From a virus, in the IMG/VR virus record IMGVR_UViG_3300021138_001866, positions 1-56,551 of that record: a DNA stretch of 56,551 nt; one strand, given 5' to 3'. Within the stretch, counting starts at the first letter, position 1. Every line of letters starts with the position of its first letter. This document shows, in pieces, positions 25,747-50,346 of the stretch. A program made the position numbers and the translations under genes. The notes beneath the pieces are model-generated. The model did not search any database. It saw only the letters and a list, made by a program, of their open reading frames with translations, and was not told where the DNA came from.

Positions 25747-25789
25747 AAAAAACCCGCCAAAGTGTGCATCGTTGAGAGGCATGGCGGGT
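25745..25789 (-). terminator. rho-independent terminator of groESL
   Basis: ACCCGCCA and TGGCGGGT pair across a 23-nt loop and are followed by six T on the minus strand, shortly after the groEL stop at 25813. Confidence 0.75.
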
Positions 25790-25812: not shown

Positions 25813-27734
<1,922 letters not shown>

Positions 27735-42418: not shown

Positions 42419-44035
42419 TTACATCAAAAGACTGGATAAATCTATGCCTTGTTGCTCAAACCACTCAGATTGTGTGGGACTCTGTTTGGCTCTTAGGTAA
42501 TTGATGTCACTGAAGGATTTAAACCATTTATCTGCTATTTCTAAAGTAATTGGATCACTTTGACGACATCTACGTGCCATATCTATATTATAATATATTG
42601 CTGTATTGTAATAAAAATGATCTTGCCAAGGTCTAAAGGTGCCATCCCTCATCGAGGCCGGTGTGTGTTTGTAATCTGACAGTATATCAAATAAACGTTC
42701 TTTAAAATTGTTTTGCAAGGCTATATCATGATTACGTAGCCAGTAATTGCTACTGGATCTAGGTGCTAGTCCAAAACTAAAATCTAATCTTTCGCAAATG
42801 CTGTCTTGAGTTTCTAACAAAAAACGACTAAAATCCTTTGGTACATAATTACTGCCTACTGGATCATTTATAAATTTTATTAATTGTAGAATTTGTAATA
42901 TTTGCAGTAAAATGCCGCTGGCATCAAATGCGTCAACAAAACTTGATGCTAGACCTACTAGGCAATAATTTTTACTCCAGGAATTTTCATAACTACCCGG
43001 ATCCCATTTTACCACCAAAGGGTCATGCAATCTTGTATTCGAATCACTACTTTCGACCATTTCGTCTAGAGCCTGATCTACTGTTCTATCAGCTGAATTG
43101 AACACATATCCATAACTTTTTCTATCCAATAGTGTAATGTCAAATAACCAACCGTATTCCATTGCTGTGGCATTGGTAACAGTTATTAATGATTTTTTTA
43201 AATCTTCGGTTGTACGATGTCCATTTGCTATGATTACAGCAGTATTGTGCCGTATACCTGCAGATGCTGTACACCATTTTAAATTTAATTTATGCCCGAG
43301 TACTCTCTTAAAACCAGTACAATCAACATATAAATTACAATTAATTTCTCGACCCTGGTCAAGGAGCAAGGTACTAATAGATCCCGAATCGGTTAATTTA
43401 ATATCCTGCACTGTACCGGTGACCCAGGTATCAATGAGATTACCATATGTTTTTTTTAACCACTCACCAGTTTTAAAACTATTAAGATGTGTGCTAACAT
43501 AGTTATTACTAAAGCGATCTTCAACCCAATTTAATTTATTACCTTTATTGTACCAATAAAATGGGTCATGATGTGACTGGTAATCTTTGTAGTTAATTTT
43601 TCCAGCTTTATATAACTCGTACCATAGGTCATACAATTTATAAGCAGTATTGCCAGGTTCAAGCCAGCTCATTGGCATTTCTTCATCTGACATGTCATTA
43701 TTAAAAATAATTTTATGGTCGGGTGCCAGTCGCATTGGACTATAAAATCCCGAATCGTTCTTGTGCAGGAAATCTTTAAATTCAACACTATATTTGAGAG
43801 TACTACGAGATTCTGTTAGGAACTGGCTTAACCATTTGGGTTGATCGGCGTTAGATATTTTTAAAATTTTAATCATCCATCGAATAAACTCCCCAGGAGC
43901 AGATTCGCCAAATCCAGCATTCTTGGGTTCAACAGGACTATCAATTAAGGTAACGTGTGCGCGAGGACAGTTTTTCTTAATAGCGATTGCTGTAAGAATC
44001 CCAGTGAAACCCGATCCTATTATGCAAATTTTCAT
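42419..44035 (-). CDS. flavin-dependent halogenase-like protein (tryptophan halogenase family)
   Basis: 538 aa. CIIGSGFTGILTAIAIKK (residues 4-21) is the FAD-binding GxGxxG; NAGFGESAPGEF (39-50) matches the G-E-S-T/A segment beside the isoalloxazine; LVGLASSFVDAFDASGILLQ matches the G-x-A-x-x-x-x-P-x-x-S-x-G block near residues 320-340. Where halogenases have W-x-W-x-I-P the sequence reads GWLFDITLLDRKSYGYVF, so halogenation is not assured. Length is typical (about 500-540 aa). Such genes occur in marine bacteria and a few phages. Substrate unknown. Confidence 0.75.
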   Translation of the reverse strand: MKICIIGSGFTGILTAIAIKKNCPRAHVTLIDSPVEPKNAGFGESAPGEFIRWMIKILKISNADQPKWLSQFLTESRSTLKYSVEFKDFLHKNDSGFYSPMRLAPDHKIIFNNDMSDEEMPMSWLEPGNTAYKLYDLWYELYKAGKINYKDYQSHHDPFYWYNKGNKLNWVEDRFSNNYVSTHLNSFKTGEWLKKTYGNLIDTWVTGTVQDIKLTDSGSISTLLLDQGREINCNLYVDCTGFKRVLGHKLNLKWCTASAGIRHNTAVIIANGHRTTEDLKKSLITVTNATAMEYGWLFDITLLDRKSYGYVFNSADRTVDQALDEMVESSDSNTRLHDPLVVKWDPGSYENSWSKNYCLVGLASSFVDAFDASGILLQILQILQLIKFINDPVGSNYVPKDFSRFLLETQDSICERLDFSFGLAPRSSSNYWLRNHDIALQNNFKERLFDILSDYKHTPASMRDGTFRPWQDHFYYNTAIYYNIDMARRCRQSDPITLEIADKWFKSFSDINYLRAKQSPTQSEWFEQQGIDLSSLLM

Positions 44036-44439: not shown

Positions 44440-44534
44440 TGGCGGAGTGTGTTGGATTCGAACCAACGATACAGTTTTTTGACCATATACTTTCTTAGCA
44501 GGAAAGCGCCTTCGACCGACTCGGCCAACACTCC
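44440..44534 (-). tRNA. tRNA-Ser(GCU)
   Basis: Acceptor GGAGTGT/ACACTCC, T8-G9, GCCGAG D-arm start, anticodon stem CTTTC/GAAAG with loop containing TGCTAA (anticodon GCT), a long variable arm, T-arm GTTCGAATC, discriminator G and encoded CCA. All identity features for Ser are present. Confidence 0.95.
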
Positions 44535-44669: not shown

Positions 44670-44754
44670 TGGTGGGCAAGGAGAGACTCGAACTCTCACG
44701 ATTTTACTCGCTGGAACCTAAATCCAGTGCGGCTACCAATTACGCCACTTGCCC
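44670..44754 (-). tRNA. tRNA-Leu(UAG)
   Basis: Acceptor GGGCAAG/CTTGCCC, anticodon arm CTGGA-TTTAGGT-TCCAG (anticodon TAG), variable arm CGAGTAAAATCGT, T-arm GAGAG-TTCGAGT-CTCTC, A73, CCA encoded. Every stem is fully paired. Its first 15 nt double as the last codons and stop of the HNH gene. Confidence 0.97.
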
Positions 44755-45198
44755 TTTTCTCTTCTCCCAGTGTAACTTAATACTCTCGGAGATTTTTTTC
44801 TTTTGATCCGCTGACTTTGGCTTATCTTTGTTTCCAGAACCGTGTGTGTTACCTTTCTTGCCTTTAGCGTTCATTCTACAGGCTTCTTCGTAACCATATT
44901 TCTCAACCATTCTGTCCCAAGGAGAAGTATTATGCCCTTGATCTAATCTATTCTCTTGTGCTGTTCCCCAATATAGGTGTTTTGGATTACTACACTTTTC
45001 ATTGTTACAGGCATGACATACATGTATCTTATGACCACTTGGTATAGTAGTATCCAATAAATGTGCCATTAGCCCTTTACAATAACTTGATAGTCCGCCT
45101 TTCTGCGGACCACCTCGTTCTACACACGGATCAGTTAAATCTATGTGCGTTTGTCTCTCTACCTTTGATTGTGTAATGTATTCTTCTATTAATAGCAT
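44740..45198 (-). CDS. HNH homing endonuclease inside a tRNA-Leu
   Basis: 152 aa from the ATG at 45198, chosen for the GAGGAG site eight nt upstream; an upstream open frame to 45507 runs through non-coding RNA and is spurious. HVCHACNNEKCSNPKHLYWGT carries the zinc-binding Cys and HNH core of the phage HNH_3 type, followed by ENRLD. A C-terminal LHWEKRKGQVA resembles NUMOD DNA-binding motifs and is encoded by tRNA-Leu sequence. Own late promoter at 45216-45223. Likely the agent of the insertion. Confidence 0.85.
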   Translation of the reverse strand: MLLIEEYITQSKVERQTHIDLTDPCVERGGPQKGGLSSYCKGLMAHLLDTTIPSGHKIHVCHACNNEKCSNPKHLYWGTAQENRLDQGHNTSPWDRMVEKYGYEEACRMNAKGKKGNTHGSGNKDKPKSADQKKKISESIKLHWEKRKGQVA

Positions 45199-45215
45199 TT
45201 TACTCTCCTCATGTT

Positions 45216-45223
45216 TATTTATA
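45216..45223 (-). promoter_or_regulatory. T4-type late promoter of the HNH gene
   Basis: TATAAATA on the minus strand, 17 nt before the ATG; lies within the sequence that splits the tRNA-Leu. Confidence 0.65.
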
Positions 45224-45245
45224 CTAAACATAAAGAAAACACTAA

Positions 45246-45277
45246 TATAGCGTGTATACCAATTCCACCATCTGGGC
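45246..45277 (-). tRNA. 5' half of the split tRNA-Leu
   Basis: Minus strand: GCCCAGA acceptor, TG, GTGG-AATTGGTATA-CAC D-arm, G26, CTATA anticodon-stem strand. The D-arm has the Leu pattern. GCCCAGA pairs perfectly with TCTGGGC, and CTATA with TATAG, of the 3' half at 44545-44589. Confidence 0.8.
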
Positions 45278-45282
45278 AAAAT

Positions 45283-45562
45283 GCAAACAGTTTGGGCACA
45301 TCTGTTTGCTTTACAACCGCGGACCCCAAACCCCCCAGACCGTCTCTGGGTCGGGCACATATCACAAGTACTGCTACCGTGCAAGCGGCTAAATGCGACT
45401 GTTGTACAAGGACTATAAAACTTTCGTGGCTTTAAAATATTGGCGCCGCTTCGGGGACACCCGATATTAGTATTATTCGAGCGACTTGAACTCTTGCAAT
45501 GCCACATACTGATTCTACCACTGGTATCAAACGGGCGTCACCCCTGTACCCAAACTGTTTAC
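45283..45562 (-). ncRNA. structured RNA of about 280 nt closed by a 17-bp helix
   Basis: On the minus strand the first 17 nt (45562-45546) pair with the last 17 (45299-45283) in one unbroken helix with two G-U pairs. Inside: GACGCCCG/CGGGTGTC (45532-45539 with 45456-45463), AAGCGGC/GCCGCTT (45445-45451 with 45383-45389) and hairpin CCCAGA/TCTGGG (45345-45350 with 45334-45339). A third copy of GTTTGGG (45324-45331) could compete for the 3' arm. Transcription should begin 5-8 nt before the helix. No coding potential. Not tmRNA, RNase P or a riboswitch I recognise; large phages place ornate RNAs (GOLLD, ROOL) beside tRNAs, but this one is smaller. Confidence 0.7.
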
Positions 45563-45574
45563 ATCTTAGTAATA

Positions 45575-45603
45575 ATTATAACATAGCAATACTTATTGGT
45601 CAA
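45575..45603 (-). promoter_or_regulatory. sigma70-like promoter of the ncRNA/tRNA locus
   Basis: TTGACC, 17 nt, TATAAT on the minus strand; start site expected near 45568, just ahead of the 17-bp closing helix. Confidence 0.85.
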
Positions 45604-45604
45604 T

Positions 45605-46849
45605 TTATATTTTCACAACTTTAAGTTTTTTATTTTCTACTGCAATTTTATTAGATTGAGTTAAATAATCTCTGTTTATAAATCCTGGTTGATTTAATTC
45701 TGCTGTACTTGGTCCTAAATAGTATAACGTAGAACAGTTTATGTTTAACCCAACCGGTTTTCCCAATTCATATGTAAAATATTTTGGATCAATTTTATGT
45801 AACAAAAAATTTAGTCCCGATTCCCACGCAGAATATAAATTAGTACCGGTTAAATTTGTATAAAACCAATGATCCATTTCGTTGTAAAAACTGTTTGTGG
45901 GTTTAACTGTTTGCCAAGTTTCTACATCATAATCCGGGTATATAATAGATTTTATAACTTGCTCATATGCAGTACGGCGAGCAGGACTGCCCTGTATTCC
46001 TTGAACAAGATGGCCAATATGCCGATTGTGAGGCATATCAAACCAGGTCTTGATTATATGTGCTTGTTTAGCCACTAGTTCAGGTAAGTCCGGAGTCCAA
46101 TAAAACAATTCTGTGGTAATATTTGTGTGATCACCTATTATAGGACATGGGTTATTTGCCTGTAAATCCATGAAGTACAAATACCACTTATTATCAATTA
46201 CAGCAAGTTTAGGTTTGTCAATACCGTGAAGCACACAGATCTTTTTGTTAGAATCTGCTAATTTACGCTGTTCTTGAGTATTAAAATTACCAAACTTGAT
46301 TCCGTGTCCAGGTTGAAACCAATCTCTGGTGGTAAAAACCCATGACTCGTCCCGCAGGTAGTCATCTTTTAATAAGTTTTCACTGTAATCCTGAATGGTG
46401 ATTTTTACCTGTGGATAGTTTGTTTTAATCCAATGTAGCAATGGTTCTGCTGCGTATTTTCTTTCACCTAGGGTATTTTCAGCTCGAGTATTCCACGGAG
46501 CATCAACAGAATCTTTATCCACCTGCTTTGGATATCTAAACATTACTTCGTCGATGTGTATGCCATTTAATAGAAAACTAAAAAGCGCAGTAGCACTATC
46601 ACCTCCGCCTGAACATTCTAATCTAATATAGTCATACCTATCACGTAATTGTTGGGCACGTTGACGATATAATTCTCGTAAATTAGTCTCAGGCTCACTT
46701 TCCCAATTAAATTTAGCAAACTCAATAGGATTAAACTGCCAATCTGGCAGTTCTCCTGTCTGTGTGGCATATATATAGGCGTCGGGTTTTAGATAAAAAA
46801 TTCTATTACCAACTCGATAATACCCAAGTTTAGAATTATGTTCAATCAT
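45605..46849 (-). CDS. PP-loop ATPase-like protein, paralogue 1
   Basis: 414 aa. LRDRYDYIRLECSGGGDSATALF places the PP-loop (SGGxDS, here S-G-G-G-D-S) at about residues 85-90, the ATP-pyrophosphatase motif of asparagine synthetase, QueC and TilS-type enzymes. A family-specific N-terminal region (KLGYYRVGNRIFYLK, WQFNPIEF) and the block ELYRQRAQQLRD are shared with the genes at 47948 and 49204. Later blocks: KKICVLHGIDKPK, YWTPDLPELVAKQAHII, NEMDHWFY. Such enzymes adenylylate a carboxyl or carbonyl group before adding N or S. Starts 4 nt after the TctC gene's stop, so the two are cotranscribed. Confidence 0.75.
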   Translation of the reverse strand: MIEHNSKLGYYRVGNRIFYLKPDAYIYATQTGELPDWQFNPIEFAKFNWESEPETNLRELYRQRAQQLRDRYDYIRLECSGGGDSATALFSFLLNGIHIDEVMFRYPKQVDKDSVDAPWNTRAENTLGERKYAAEPLLHWIKTNYPQVKITIQDYSENLLKDDYLRDESWVFTTRDWFQPGHGIKFGNFNTQEQRKLADSNKKICVLHGIDKPKLAVIDNKWYLYFMDLQANNPCPIIGDHTNITTELFYWTPDLPELVAKQAHIIKTWFDMPHNRHIGHLVQGIQGSPARRTAYEQVIKSIIYPDYDVETWQTVKPTNSFYNEMDHWFYTNLTGTNLYSAWESGLNFLLHKIDPKYFTYELGKPVGLNINCSTLYYLGPSTAELNQPGFINRDYLTQSNKIAVENKKLKVVKI

Positions 46850-46852
46850 CGA

Positions 46853-47758
46853 TTAATCTAATTTGACACCAACGGTTAAATTAGTCCAATATCGATTTTG
46901 ATCATCCCACCAGGCTGGTAAATCTTTTTCTGACACTTGAAACGGTTCGCAGTAATCTGGTGCATAAGAGTCACGTACAGATTTTTTATTTTCTACCTTT
47001 AACAGTATTTCGCGTATTTCGTGTGCTTTTTCCTCGGAAAATGAACGTGGCACCATGAGGTTATAGGGAGTATTCATTTTTGCCAGTGTAGGAGAAAAGC
47101 CCTGACTTGATAAATTAGGATACTGTGACACATACTTAGGGCCAGTTGTCCCAAGAATAACAAGTTTATTTTTAGAATTTTCACTGGTAAATTTTTCTAG
47201 GTCACCGACAAATCCAACTGCCAGGTCGACCTGTTTGCCCATTGCAGCTAATAAAGCATCAGTAGTACTTTTAAAAGGAATTACTCTGGCGTTAGGATAA
47301 TTTTTTATAACAGCCAGTGCAGTTAAATGACTAACAACCCCAAGTCCGCTAGTAGCAATAGTAACAGGACTATCTTTAGGAACTTCTTTCCATGTACTAT
47401 ATTTTCCCGATGCTACTGCAAAAGGAACACTACATTGTGTCATAATAGTTCTCATTTCGTGTACATCATAACTTTCTGTAGGATAAAAATTAGGTCTTAC
47501 CCAGTAAGCACCCGATGTCATAAAAATAGTATTAGGTGTATTTTTTATGTAATTAAATGCTACAACCTGTCCGGCACCAGGCCTGACGTCAAAAAGAAAA
47601 TTATATCGATCTTGAATTTTATTGGCTTCTTCGGCCAAGGTTCTGGCATAATTTGCACTATTATCGCCGGCACTAAATCCGTAAATAATTGTAATATTTT
47701 CTCGCGCCTGTGCAGTTAATGCGAAAAATGTAAGTAAGATTGCTAAAAATTTTTTCAT
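46853..47758 (-). CDS. TctC/Bug-type periplasmic solute receptor 1
   Basis: 301 aa. Signal peptide MKKFLAILLTFFALTAQA. The mature part follows the tripartite tricarboxylate transporter receptor fold: ITIIYGFSAGDNSANYARTLA, DVRPGAGQVVAFNYI (the R-x-G-A/G-x-G ligand loop), PTESYDVHEMRTI, VTIATSGLGVVSHLTAL, ALLAAMGKQVDLAVGFVGD. These proteins bind carboxylates or small amides in the periplasm. No TctA/TctB membrane genes are nearby, so it must use host transporters or act alone. Consensus promoter at 47779-47807. Confidence 0.85.
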   Translation of the reverse strand: MKKFLAILLTFFALTAQARENITIIYGFSAGDNSANYARTLAEEANKIQDRYNFLFDVRPGAGQVVAFNYIKNTPNTIFMTSGAYWVRPNFYPTESYDVHEMRTIMTQCSVPFAVASGKYSTWKEVPKDSPVTIATSGLGVVSHLTALAVIKNYPNARVIPFKSTTDALLAAMGKQVDLAVGFVGDLEKFTSENSKNKLVILGTTGPKYVSQYPNLSSQGFSPTLAKMNTPYNLMVPRSFSEEKAHEIREILLKVENKKSVRDSYAPDYCEPFQVSEKDLPAWWDDQNRYWTNLTVGVKLD

Positions 47759-47778
47759 AAAATCTCCATTGAAGTATA

Positions 47779-47807
47779 AGTTTACGATGTTACTCGTAAT
47801 TTGTCAA
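47779..47807 (-). promoter_or_regulatory. sigma70-like promoter of TctC receptor 1
   Basis: TTGACA, 17 nt, TAAACT on the minus strand, about 20 nt before the start at 47758. Confidence 0.7.
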
Positions 47808-47809
47808 GT

Positions 47810-47945
47810 TAAATTGCTTGTAGGAATCTACTTACGGAAATCGGCGTTCTAGGTGTATCACACTAGTAAAAGAGTTTTGCTACTCTAGGCGTCAATGTAA
47901 ACCCGACGTCGGACGACCCGGCGTTGCTTAAATTATTTATTACAG
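47810..47945 (-). other. hairpin-rich intergenic stretch
   Basis: The gap between the PP-loop gene ending at 47948 and the promoter at 47779 has no gene. It folds into several stems on the minus strand: CCGACGTCGG palindrome, AGAGT...ACTCT, and CTAG-TGT...ACA-CTAG, with AACGCCG present twice. Could be a terminator region or a small RNA. Confidence 0.4.
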
Positions 47946-47947
47946 TA

Positions 47948-49144
47948 TTAAAAACGATCTTTTAATTCAACTTCGTATCTTTTATTAGTCTGTGTGTAGT
48001 GTGCTGGCCCTATATGATAAAATGGCGTTAAAAACCCAACAAATCCCACAACACGGTCAAATTCTATATTAAAGTATTTGCGATCTATGTTCTCTTCGAC
48101 AAAGTTTATACCAGCCATCCAACTTTGATAAAGTTTATGATCTTTGTATTGACTATAAAACCAATAGTCCATCTCACTATAAAAATTAGTACCAGGTTTG
48201 GCAACTTGAAAAGTTAAATGATCATAGTCGGGGTATACCAATGGTTTAATTGTTTGTTCGTAGGCAGTACGTTGAGCATTACTGTGGTTAGGCCAGCGAG
48301 CTAAAAATTGTAAATGTTGATTAGCAGGTGTATTAAACCAATTGCGTATGATGTGTGCTTGTTTTACTGTAAGAGTAGGAAGGTCAGGAGTCCAAAAGAA
48401 ATATTCGTTGGTAATATTTGAGTACTCACCTATGTCGGGATTAGCATAATTAGCCTGAAAGTCAATAAAATATGCGTACCATTGGTTATCTTTTATACAC
48501 AATTTTGGCTTATCTATGCCGTACAATATACAGATCTTTTTTCCTGTGTCGGCTAATAGTCTATGACCAATGGTTTGGTAATTGGTAAATTTAGTAACGT
48601 GCGCCGGTTGTAAAAAATCCTTGGCTGCGTACACCCATGATTCATCTCTATCAGAATCGGCCAACATATCAGCTGAGTAGTCGTGTATAGTTATTTTAAT
48701 ATCAGGATAGTGTGTAGCTAACCAATTAAATAAAGGCCTGGTGGCAAATTCATATTCGCTTAAATGGTTTTCTGTATTATAAGAAAGTGACACCGGTACC
48801 TTGCCTTTACCGGCTTCAGGAAATCGAAATACAATTTCATCTAATTTTATATTGTTTAATAAAAAACTAAACAAAGCCTGTGTGCTGTCACTTCCGCCCG
48901 AACACTCTAATCTAATGTAATCGTATTGGTCGCGTAGTTGCTGAGCACGTTGACGATATAATTCTCTAATATCAATATCTGGTTCAGTATGCCAATCTTG
49001 AGCTTGATAAATTTTATTGTTAAAATCCCAGTGCGGAAATTCATTGGTCTTGGTTGCATCAATAAGGGCATTTACTTTACTGTAGTGAATGCGGTCACCT
49101 ACAGTATATAGGCCCAGTTTTTGGTTTTGTTCTAGAGTTATCAT
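47948..49144 (-). CDS. PP-loop ATPase-like protein, paralogue 2
   Basis: 398 aa. PP-loop in YDYIRLECSGGSDSTQALF (S-G-G-S-D-S, canonical). Shares blocks across its whole length with the gene at 45605: QKLGLYTVGDRIHY, DIRELYRQRAQQLRD, KKICILYGIDKPKL, FFWTPDLPTLTVKQAHII, AYEQTIKPLVYPDYDH, SEMDYWFY. Internal Asp/Glu positions match, so all three paralogues probably act on related substrates. No signal peptide; cytoplasmic. Confidence 0.75.
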   Translation of the reverse strand: MITLEQNQKLGLYTVGDRIHYSKVNALIDATKTNEFPHWDFNNKIYQAQDWHTEPDIDIRELYRQRAQQLRDQYDYIRLECSGGSDSTQALFSFLLNNIKLDEIVFRFPEAGKGKVPVSLSYNTENHLSEYEFATRPLFNWLATHYPDIKITIHDYSADMLADSDRDESWVYAAKDFLQPAHVTKFTNYQTIGHRLLADTGKKICILYGIDKPKLCIKDNQWYAYFIDFQANYANPDIGEYSNITNEYFFWTPDLPTLTVKQAHIIRNWFNTPANQHLQFLARWPNHSNAQRTAYEQTIKPLVYPDYDHLTFQVAKPGTNFYSEMDYWFYSQYKDHKLYQSWMAGINFVEENIDRKYFNIEFDRVVGFVGFLTPFYHIGPAHYTQTNKRYEVELKDRF

Positions 49145-49203
49145 TGGCAGTTAAAATTTAGTATTATGCATTTTTATAAAACAGGTTGGTATATTTTATT
49201 AAT

Positions 49204-50346
49204 TTAATCAACCCTGCCAACAAACCAATGCGGGCTATCGTGACCTTTAATTCCTTTATTATTAAGTAAAGGGTCTAAAAATGAAGGATCTAGGTTGTTG
49301 GTTAAAAAGTCTATTCCAGCATTCCAGTTCTTTATAAGTTTGGTATTTTTAAATTGCCTAGTAAACCATAGGTCTAGTTCGCTTTCCCAATCTAACATTG
49401 GTTTTTTAACCTGGAACCATGTGGTGTCCCAGGTGCTAGAATAAATTATACGCTTTAACAAAATTTCTTGTGTTGCACGATCGATCATCAGTTGCGGATA
49501 AAACAATGGTATATATTTAGGATTTTGTTTGAAGTATTTTAATATAACATGAGCTTGTTTAACTAACATATCACAAGATTCTGGTGACCAATAAAAGTAC
49601 TCTATCTCAGTATTGGTATAGTCAGCAAAGTGTTGAGAAATAGGCGTAATATTTGTAAGTTTATCAAAGAAATACAGGTAAAGTTCATTGGTACGATTAA
49701 CATATATCCTAGGTTTATCTGTACCAGTTATTATAGCAATACTTTTATAATGATCAAACCTATTATGTAAATTTTTCATCCCAATATAATTATATCTTTG
49801 TATTACAGCCGGATTAATAGGATCTTTATAATCAAGTACCCAGGATTCGTCTTGAACATTTTTAAAATAATCAATTATAGCACGACTACAATCAAAAAAT
49901 GTTATTTTTGTAGCAGGCATATTGTCGGTGATCCATTGCAATCGTGCTCGAGTATGAAGTTCATATTCGGCATTAGAATTCCAGGGTGTGGTTATTTCTT
50001 TATCAAGTATAGTAAAATTTTTTGTTGCTTCGAGAACCCAATTAGTTACAATTTCGTCTATATGCAGTCCTTGCCGATAAAAGCTCATTAAGATATTATT
50101 ACTGTCGCTACCGCCACTATAGCTTAATATAATGTAATCATATTTTTCTCTAAGTTCTCTGGCACGTTGGTCGTACAACTCATCTAAAGATTTTTCAGGT
50201 TCTTGAGCCCAATTAACCGCATTAAATATATTGTCGTTGAAAATCCACTGAATTGATTGTTTTATTTCAGTTGCGTAAAGATACGCTTGAATCTTGCTTT
50301 CAAATTCTTTCCCATTGCAAAAATAATAGCCTAGTTTTTTATTCAT
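49204..50346 (-). CDS. PP-loop ATPase-like protein, paralogue 3
   Basis: 380 aa, the most diverged copy. PP-loop in YDYIILSYSGGSDSNNILM (canonical). Shares KLGYYFCNGK, LDELYDQRARELREKYDYI, SIAIITGTDKPRI, YWSPESCDMLVKQAHVIL and SELDLWFT with its paralogues. Start overlaps by 4 nt the stop of TctC receptor 2 (ATGA-type), so like paralogue 1 it is coupled to a receptor gene. Function unknown. Confidence 0.75.
   Translation of the reverse strand: MNKKLGYYFCNGKEFESKIQAYLYATEIKQSIQWIFNDNIFNAVNWAQEPEKSLDELYDQRARELREKYDYIILSYSGGSDSNNILMSFYRQGLHIDEIVTNWVLEATKNFTILDKEITTPWNSNAEYELHTRARLQWITDNMPATKITFFDCSRAIIDYFKNVQDESWVLDYKDPINPAVIQRYNYIGMKNLHNRFDHYKSIAIITGTDKPRIYVNRTNELYLYFFDKLTNITPISQHFADYTNTEIEYFYWSPESCDMLVKQAHVILKYFKQNPKYIPLFYPQLMIDRATQEILLKRIIYSSTWDTTWFQVKKPMLDWESELDLWFTRQFKNTKLIKNWNAGIDFLTNNLDPSFLDPLLNNKGIKGHDSPHWFVGRVD

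Follow-up and report, generated by a model that had tools for sequence, protein, structure and literature searches.

A stretch of about 290 nt beside tRNA genes in a virus sequence encodes a structured non-coding RNA, one of a family whose existence and fold we regard as practically certain. The window analysed was IMG/VR virus record IMGVR_UViG_3300021138_001866, taken whole (56,551 bases). The RNA family is new by sequence and fold, and the new class suggested by the original prediction is borne out by relatives that show covariation and by the lack of any match in Rfam 15. The best explanation, which we think likely, is that the window copy belongs to a new family of non-coding RNA genes of large freshwater phages, with one gene per genome and a stable product acting in trans; we infer the freshwater setting from the kind of metagenome and from the relatives. 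The long tRNA islands of large phages contain unexplained RNAs, of which GOLLD and ROOL are the known ones, and a compact family with a covariation-supported fold and promoters of its own is a much smaller object for work on structure and function.

Locus, promoter and folding of the window copy

The RNA and its neighbours lie on the minus strand of the window, in the following order of transcription:

45575-45603, minus strand: sigma70-like promoter with 11 of 12 consensus matches, TTGACC-17-TATAAT, extended -10 (TGn)
45279-45568, minus strand: structured RNA, ~290 nt, starting at the predicted transcription start region and with a predicted 3' end; represented in the family alignment A7 of 20 members
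45242-45277, minus strand: tRNA-Leu 5' half, immediately following the RNA; the HNH unit interrupts this tRNA gene
44740-45198, minus strand: HNH homing-endonuclease-like ORF, 152 aa, with weak Pfam matches below the cut-off
44670-44754, minus strand: tRNA-Leu (UAG)
44440-44534, minus strand: tRNA-Ser (GCU)

That this is a promoter-driven structured RNA beside tRNAs, as predicted from the window alone, was upheld by the promoter and by the covariation among relatives. The near-perfect sigma70-like promoter expected just before the closing helix is present, with a 17-nt spacer and the extended -10, and none of 300 shuffled sequences equalled its score of 11/12. Promoters of at least 10/12 were found within ~45 nt upstream of the closing helix P1 in 7 of the 16 distinct members, compared with an expectation of 0.22 from shuffles, and in the clear cases the predicted start falls within a few bases of P1. 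Promoters were unclear in four members (L210, L207, L213 and L218). No credible ORF was found in the RNA region, in agreement with the predicted lack of coding potential; the long minus-strand frame at 44740-45507 is the frame of the HNH gene extended upstream past its likely start codon (ATG at 45198).

On the minus strand, positions 45566-45545 (AGATGTAAACAGTTTGGGTACA) pair with positions 45300-45279 (TGTGCCCAAACTGTTTGCATTT) to form P1. Closing arms of 17 nt with two G-U pairs had been proposed; the two G-U pairs lie within a 20-bp core, but the helix is longer, at 22 bp. For the RNA region the folding energy is -102.8 kcal/mol (z = -3.4), which none of 100 shuffles matched, while the opposite strand gives z = -1.55. 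The 244-nt interior alone is no more stable than shuffled sequences (z = +0.52), and the closing helix is thus the source of all the excess stability. Folding alone was therefore insufficient as proof, and relatives were required.

Elsewhere, the window encodes phage replication genes, including a DnaB-like helicase (45-46% identity to its counterparts in Agrobacterium phage Atu_ph07 and Pseudomonas phage PA5oct), as well as a GroEL homologue and further host-like genes. Pfam identifies a tryptophan halogenase at 42419-44035 and GroEL at 25813-27432 (both minus strand). Just after groEL (25752-25788, minus strand), a 50-bit Rfam match to abiF (CCCGCC...GGCGGGTTTTTT) looks like an ordinary terminator and is probably not a true abiF RNA. 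The region 45605-50346 (minus strand) contains three related, asparagine-synthase-like proteins of ~400 aa with an SGGxDS motif, together with two TctC-like periplasmic binding proteins; the one SGGxDS protein tested (45605-46849) had no Pfam hit. Relatives also occur near other copies of the new RNA.

Relatives of the RNA

We compared the window RNA with the whole of Rfam 15 and obtained no match to a known family even at E-values up to 10. Two other members had no GOLLD or ROOL match up to E = 1, and the sole match for one of them was a chance hit to a CRISPR repeat. No description of this RNA was found in the openly available literature, preprints excluded.

Direct sequence searches recovered little. 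Compared by blastn with sequenced phages, the window RNA matched essentially through the downstream tRNA-Leu half alone, and other members had nothing significant in phages or plasmids. A pattern requiring the exact helix gave zero matches over IMG/VR, and patterns built from the 5' motif only gave unrelated matches apart from the known L064/L071 copy. A blastn search against the whole records of 42 related phages revealed one diverged copy (record G001; 78% identity over 50 nt, E = 9e-5), in which both P1 arms are in place and differ from those of the window compensatorily. A covariance model of these two sequences then identified two more copies in lineage records (E = 7e-26 and 2.6e-15).

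A pattern built on the conserved 3' block returned 22 stretches from IMG/VR. Those scored with a four-sequence model were members, with E-values of 1.6e-25 or better at full length; one partial copy was clipped in the excised locus and is full length in its own record. Among 84,980 prokaryote species the same pattern matched 12 stretches, all of them non-members. In total, relatives were found in more than 20 IMG/VR records, which include near-duplicates, so that the independent members number ~16 (distinct at <97% identity) plus one divergent short form. In the 20-member alignment, the identity between the window and each other member is 46-58%, and the aligned length across the family is ~273-306 nt.

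Searches of whole records found exactly one copy of the RNA in each of 21 records. It is absent from four large related records (G004, G008, G076 and G042) and is therefore dispensable. The short form (L244 1501-1712, minus strand, record G041) is a diverged 212-nt sequence that retains P1, P3 and P4 around a much shorter middle, and is recognized by the 20-member model at E = 2.9e-12. Model matches in PA5oct and LR756504.1 were rejected as plain terminator-like hairpins. A resemblance of the conserved blocks to the 790 loop of 16S rRNA was attributed to chance, as nhmmer did not detect 16S and 13 of 40 shuffled sequences did equally well.

Fold and covariation across the family

The elements of the fold, with their positions in the window, are as follows:

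45545-45566, minus strand: 5' arm of P1; 19 of 22 pairs changed on both sides
45533-45544, minus strand: P2 hairpin, stem GGG/CCC and loop GUGACG; pair 33-40 covaries UA/CG/GC
45516-45532, minus strand: conserved 5' block GUUUGAUACCAGUGGUA, forming the 5' strands of P3a and P3b
45451-45464, minus strand: P4 hairpin UCGGG-UGUC-CCCGA; pair 127-132 covaries GC/AU/CG
45429-45439, minus strand: conserved stretch around AUUUUAAA, apparently unpaired
45409-45411, minus strand: 5' strand of P5 (CCU), partner 45326-45324
45304-45327, minus strand: conserved 3' block GGGGUCCGCGGUUGUAAAGCAAAC, forming the 3' strands of P5, P3b and P3a
45279-45300, minus strand: 3' arm of P1, pairing with 45566-45545

Alignment A7 was made with MAFFT, blind to structure. 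From it, RNAalifold predicted 43 pairs, 25 of them with compensatory changes, in P1 (22 bp), P3a (5 bp), P3b (7 bp and a bulge), P4 (5 bp) and P5; P3a and P3b are long-range inner helices. A separate count on the same alignment found that 26 of 45 pairs had changed on both sides, giving 130 double-change cells, and that 96.5% of cells were paired, compared with 34-43% when the structure was slid along the alignment (0 of 500 shuffles as good). The P2 hairpin, recognized on four sequences and with a loop that is mostly GUGRCG in the family, holds in the larger set.

Covariation was assessed against a null from our own tree-aware script rather than R-scape, redistributing substitutions to give 40 null alignments of 16 sequences. 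In the whole alignment, the seven column pairs with the strongest covariation were all located inside the structure, two at E = 0 and five at E = 0.075-0.2 (that is, not below 0.05), and the first pair outside it appeared at E = 0.5. We also drew the core structure from four sequences and tested it on 12 other members, in which pairing reached 95.8% for P1, 100% for P3a, 98.8% for P3b and 100% for P4; in P1 of these held-out members, 70 cells differed from the window in both bases of the pair. The 3' strands of P3 and P5 are biased towards conservation because they partially overlap the 3' block used for the pattern search, while P1, P2 and P4 are free of this bias. Cells with G-U pairs (n = 40) exceeded those with A-C (n = 7), and the minus strand is therefore the RNA strand. 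Helices P1 to P5 are thus supported by covariation among homologues, the check proposed with the original prediction.

In the fold shared by the family, which it can adopt, the window RNA has a folding energy of -96.2 kcal/mol, 6.6 above its own free minimum. An 8-bp internal helix proposed earlier (GACGCCCG/CGGGTGTC) is possible in the window but contradicted by the relatives, in which 62% of its cells are paired and three of its eight pairs almost never form; its halves fall within P2 and P4. Further inner helices are supported in the larger subgroup, including a 4-bp hairpin with mostly GNRA-type loops, and the interior is less well resolved in the window's own subgroup.

Genomic neighbourhood and possible role

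The 5' half of tRNA-Leu in the window begins at 45277, one base past P1. The region 45277-44545 (minus strand) appears to be a tRNA-Leu split by the HNH ORF and the complete tRNA-Leu(UAG), with the matching 3' half (...TCTCTTTCTGGGCACCA) at ~44590-44545. The arrangement of 5' half, HNH ORF and tRNA-Leu(UAG) recurs in phages L027 (98.6%), L031, L034, L036 and L037, and resembles a homing endonuclease unit with tRNA-Leu as its target. In four other members (L219, L202, L211 and L205) the tRNA-Leu right after the RNA is intact, and the interruption in the window is thus probably secondary. HEARO/omega RNA adjoins HNH nucleases, and the new RNA likewise has an HNH gene downstream in the window; however, this gene is a small homing-type ORF belonging to a neighbouring unit separate from the RNA, and other phages have this unit but lack the new RNA.

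Elsewhere in the family, P1 begins 3 nt past the end of a tRNA-Ser in three copies (L175, L209 and L215), and a tRNA begins 8-21 nt after P1 in seven (L209, L201, L215, L219, L202, L211 and L205). The link to tRNAs is real but not obligatory, since some copies (L200, L213, L212 and L064) lie 1.5-3.4 kb from the nearest tRNA. Neither ARAGORN nor Rfam gave a tRNA or tmRNA hit over the RNA, and a degenerate tRNA array was rejected, there being zero tRNA model hits inside it.

Starts at a promoter or a tRNA-Ser, ends adjacent to tRNAs and varying downstream genes fit a stable RNA that acts in trans and is produced along with the tRNA operon, a reading that we consider well supported. Transcription would begin at the RNA's own promoter or run through from the preceding tRNA, and the ends of the RNA would be set by the transcription start and by host tRNA-processing enzymes cutting at the adjacent tRNAs. 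P1 could then shield it from exonucleases, allowing it to accumulate like a tRNA. The least certain step is that it might act during infection as a stable scaffold or RNP and not as a controller of the adjacent gene.

A different role in the same place would be that of a helper or decoy, in which the RNA helps the phage tRNAs to mature or protects them, or sequesters a tRNA-cutting or tRNA-processing enzyme of the host. The position in tRNA islands is consistent with this, as is the fact that several copies start after tRNA CCA ends and stop before tRNA 5' ends. We nonetheless consider it unlikely, as the four copies distant from any tRNA retain the same structure and the RNA contains no tRNA-like fold.

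Less probable still is a cis-acting element (a leader, attenuator or riboswitch) that regulates whatever lies directly downstream through two alternative folds. The promoter just before P1 is compatible with such an element, as are two features of the window copy, namely a third copy of GTTTGGG at ~45335-45326 and a local hairpin at the 3' end (GCAAACAG/CTGTTTGC). In addition, a few copies (L176, L206, L208 and L064) extend nearly to where a protein-coding gene begins, and a cis role is conceivable for these. However, what lies downstream differs between members (tRNA-Leu, tRNA-Thr, tRNA-Pro, half a tRNA or different ORFs), and the members compared share no particular gene or function at that position. 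The competing GTTTGGG that had been noted is indeed present in the window, but it has no counterpart among the relatives in A7, and the hairpin was likewise found in the window copy only. With the 8-bp helix also not conserved, the competing arms exist solely in the window copy and there are no conserved mutually exclusive folds; the suggested switch between two folds is thus unsupported as a family trait, while P1 is maintained by compensation across members.

A shortened or diverged GOLLD or ROOL was considered because of the similar neighbourhood and the occurrence of GOLLD in related phages. The GOLLD covariance model (RF02032), which represents its conserved 3' region, had no match to the window at E up to 10, nor did the ROOL model in the scan of Rfam 15. 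Moreover, GOLLD is present in 5 of the 21 records holding the new RNA (G001, G057, G097, G098 and G107) and in 3 of 24 others (G028, G041 and G042, where G041 also has the short form), and where a record has both, the two share a strand and are separated by 3-10 kb. As five genomes carry both as separate genes, the new RNA is neither GOLLD nor a simple replacement for it, and this reading is highly improbable. Equally remote is a DNA element without RNA function, the terminal inverted repeats of a small transposable element, for although nearly perfect inverted repeats of ~20-22 nt flank a non-coding stretch, the repeat sequences vary between members while their complementarity is kept, the inner helices covary as well, G-U cells far outnumber A-C cells and each genome has one copy.

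In phage T4, the tRNA gene cluster encodes two stable non-tRNA RNAs, C and D (species 1 and 2), in a general arrangement comparable to that of the new RNA but with a length of ~120-140 nt. Like GOLLD, the new RNA is a phage RNA in or near tRNA islands with an elaborate covarying structure; unlike it, the new RNA is compact (many GOLLD members exceed 800 nt, and the Rfam model has 416 positions) and without detectable similarity. ROOL is also a phage or prophage RNA often found near tRNA islands, but the solved one is 659 nt long and its predicted structures include several pseudoknots (PMC12286853). Both GOLLD and ROOL form RNA-only cages of unknown function, and the level of GOLLD rises during phage lysis (PMC12286853). 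By analogy with these two, a scaffold role for the new RNA is a tentative guess. With similar reserve, it may be a further, unrelated class of tRNA-island RNA that is abundant in infection and forms an RNP for assembly or host takeover, perhaps together with GOLLD of the same island. The family suggests that tRNA islands may be a wider store of undescribed RNA classes.

Two further observations concern tRNA islands of related phages. A GOLLD match in L037 (4042-4504) has a tRNA-Lys inside it. Other long, apparently non-coding and structured-looking stretches lie between tRNAs in L028 (2640-2853), L031 (~2317-2600), L036 (~2328-2562) and L037 (~1520-1939); none had an Rfam match above the gathering score, and they may represent further RNA classes.
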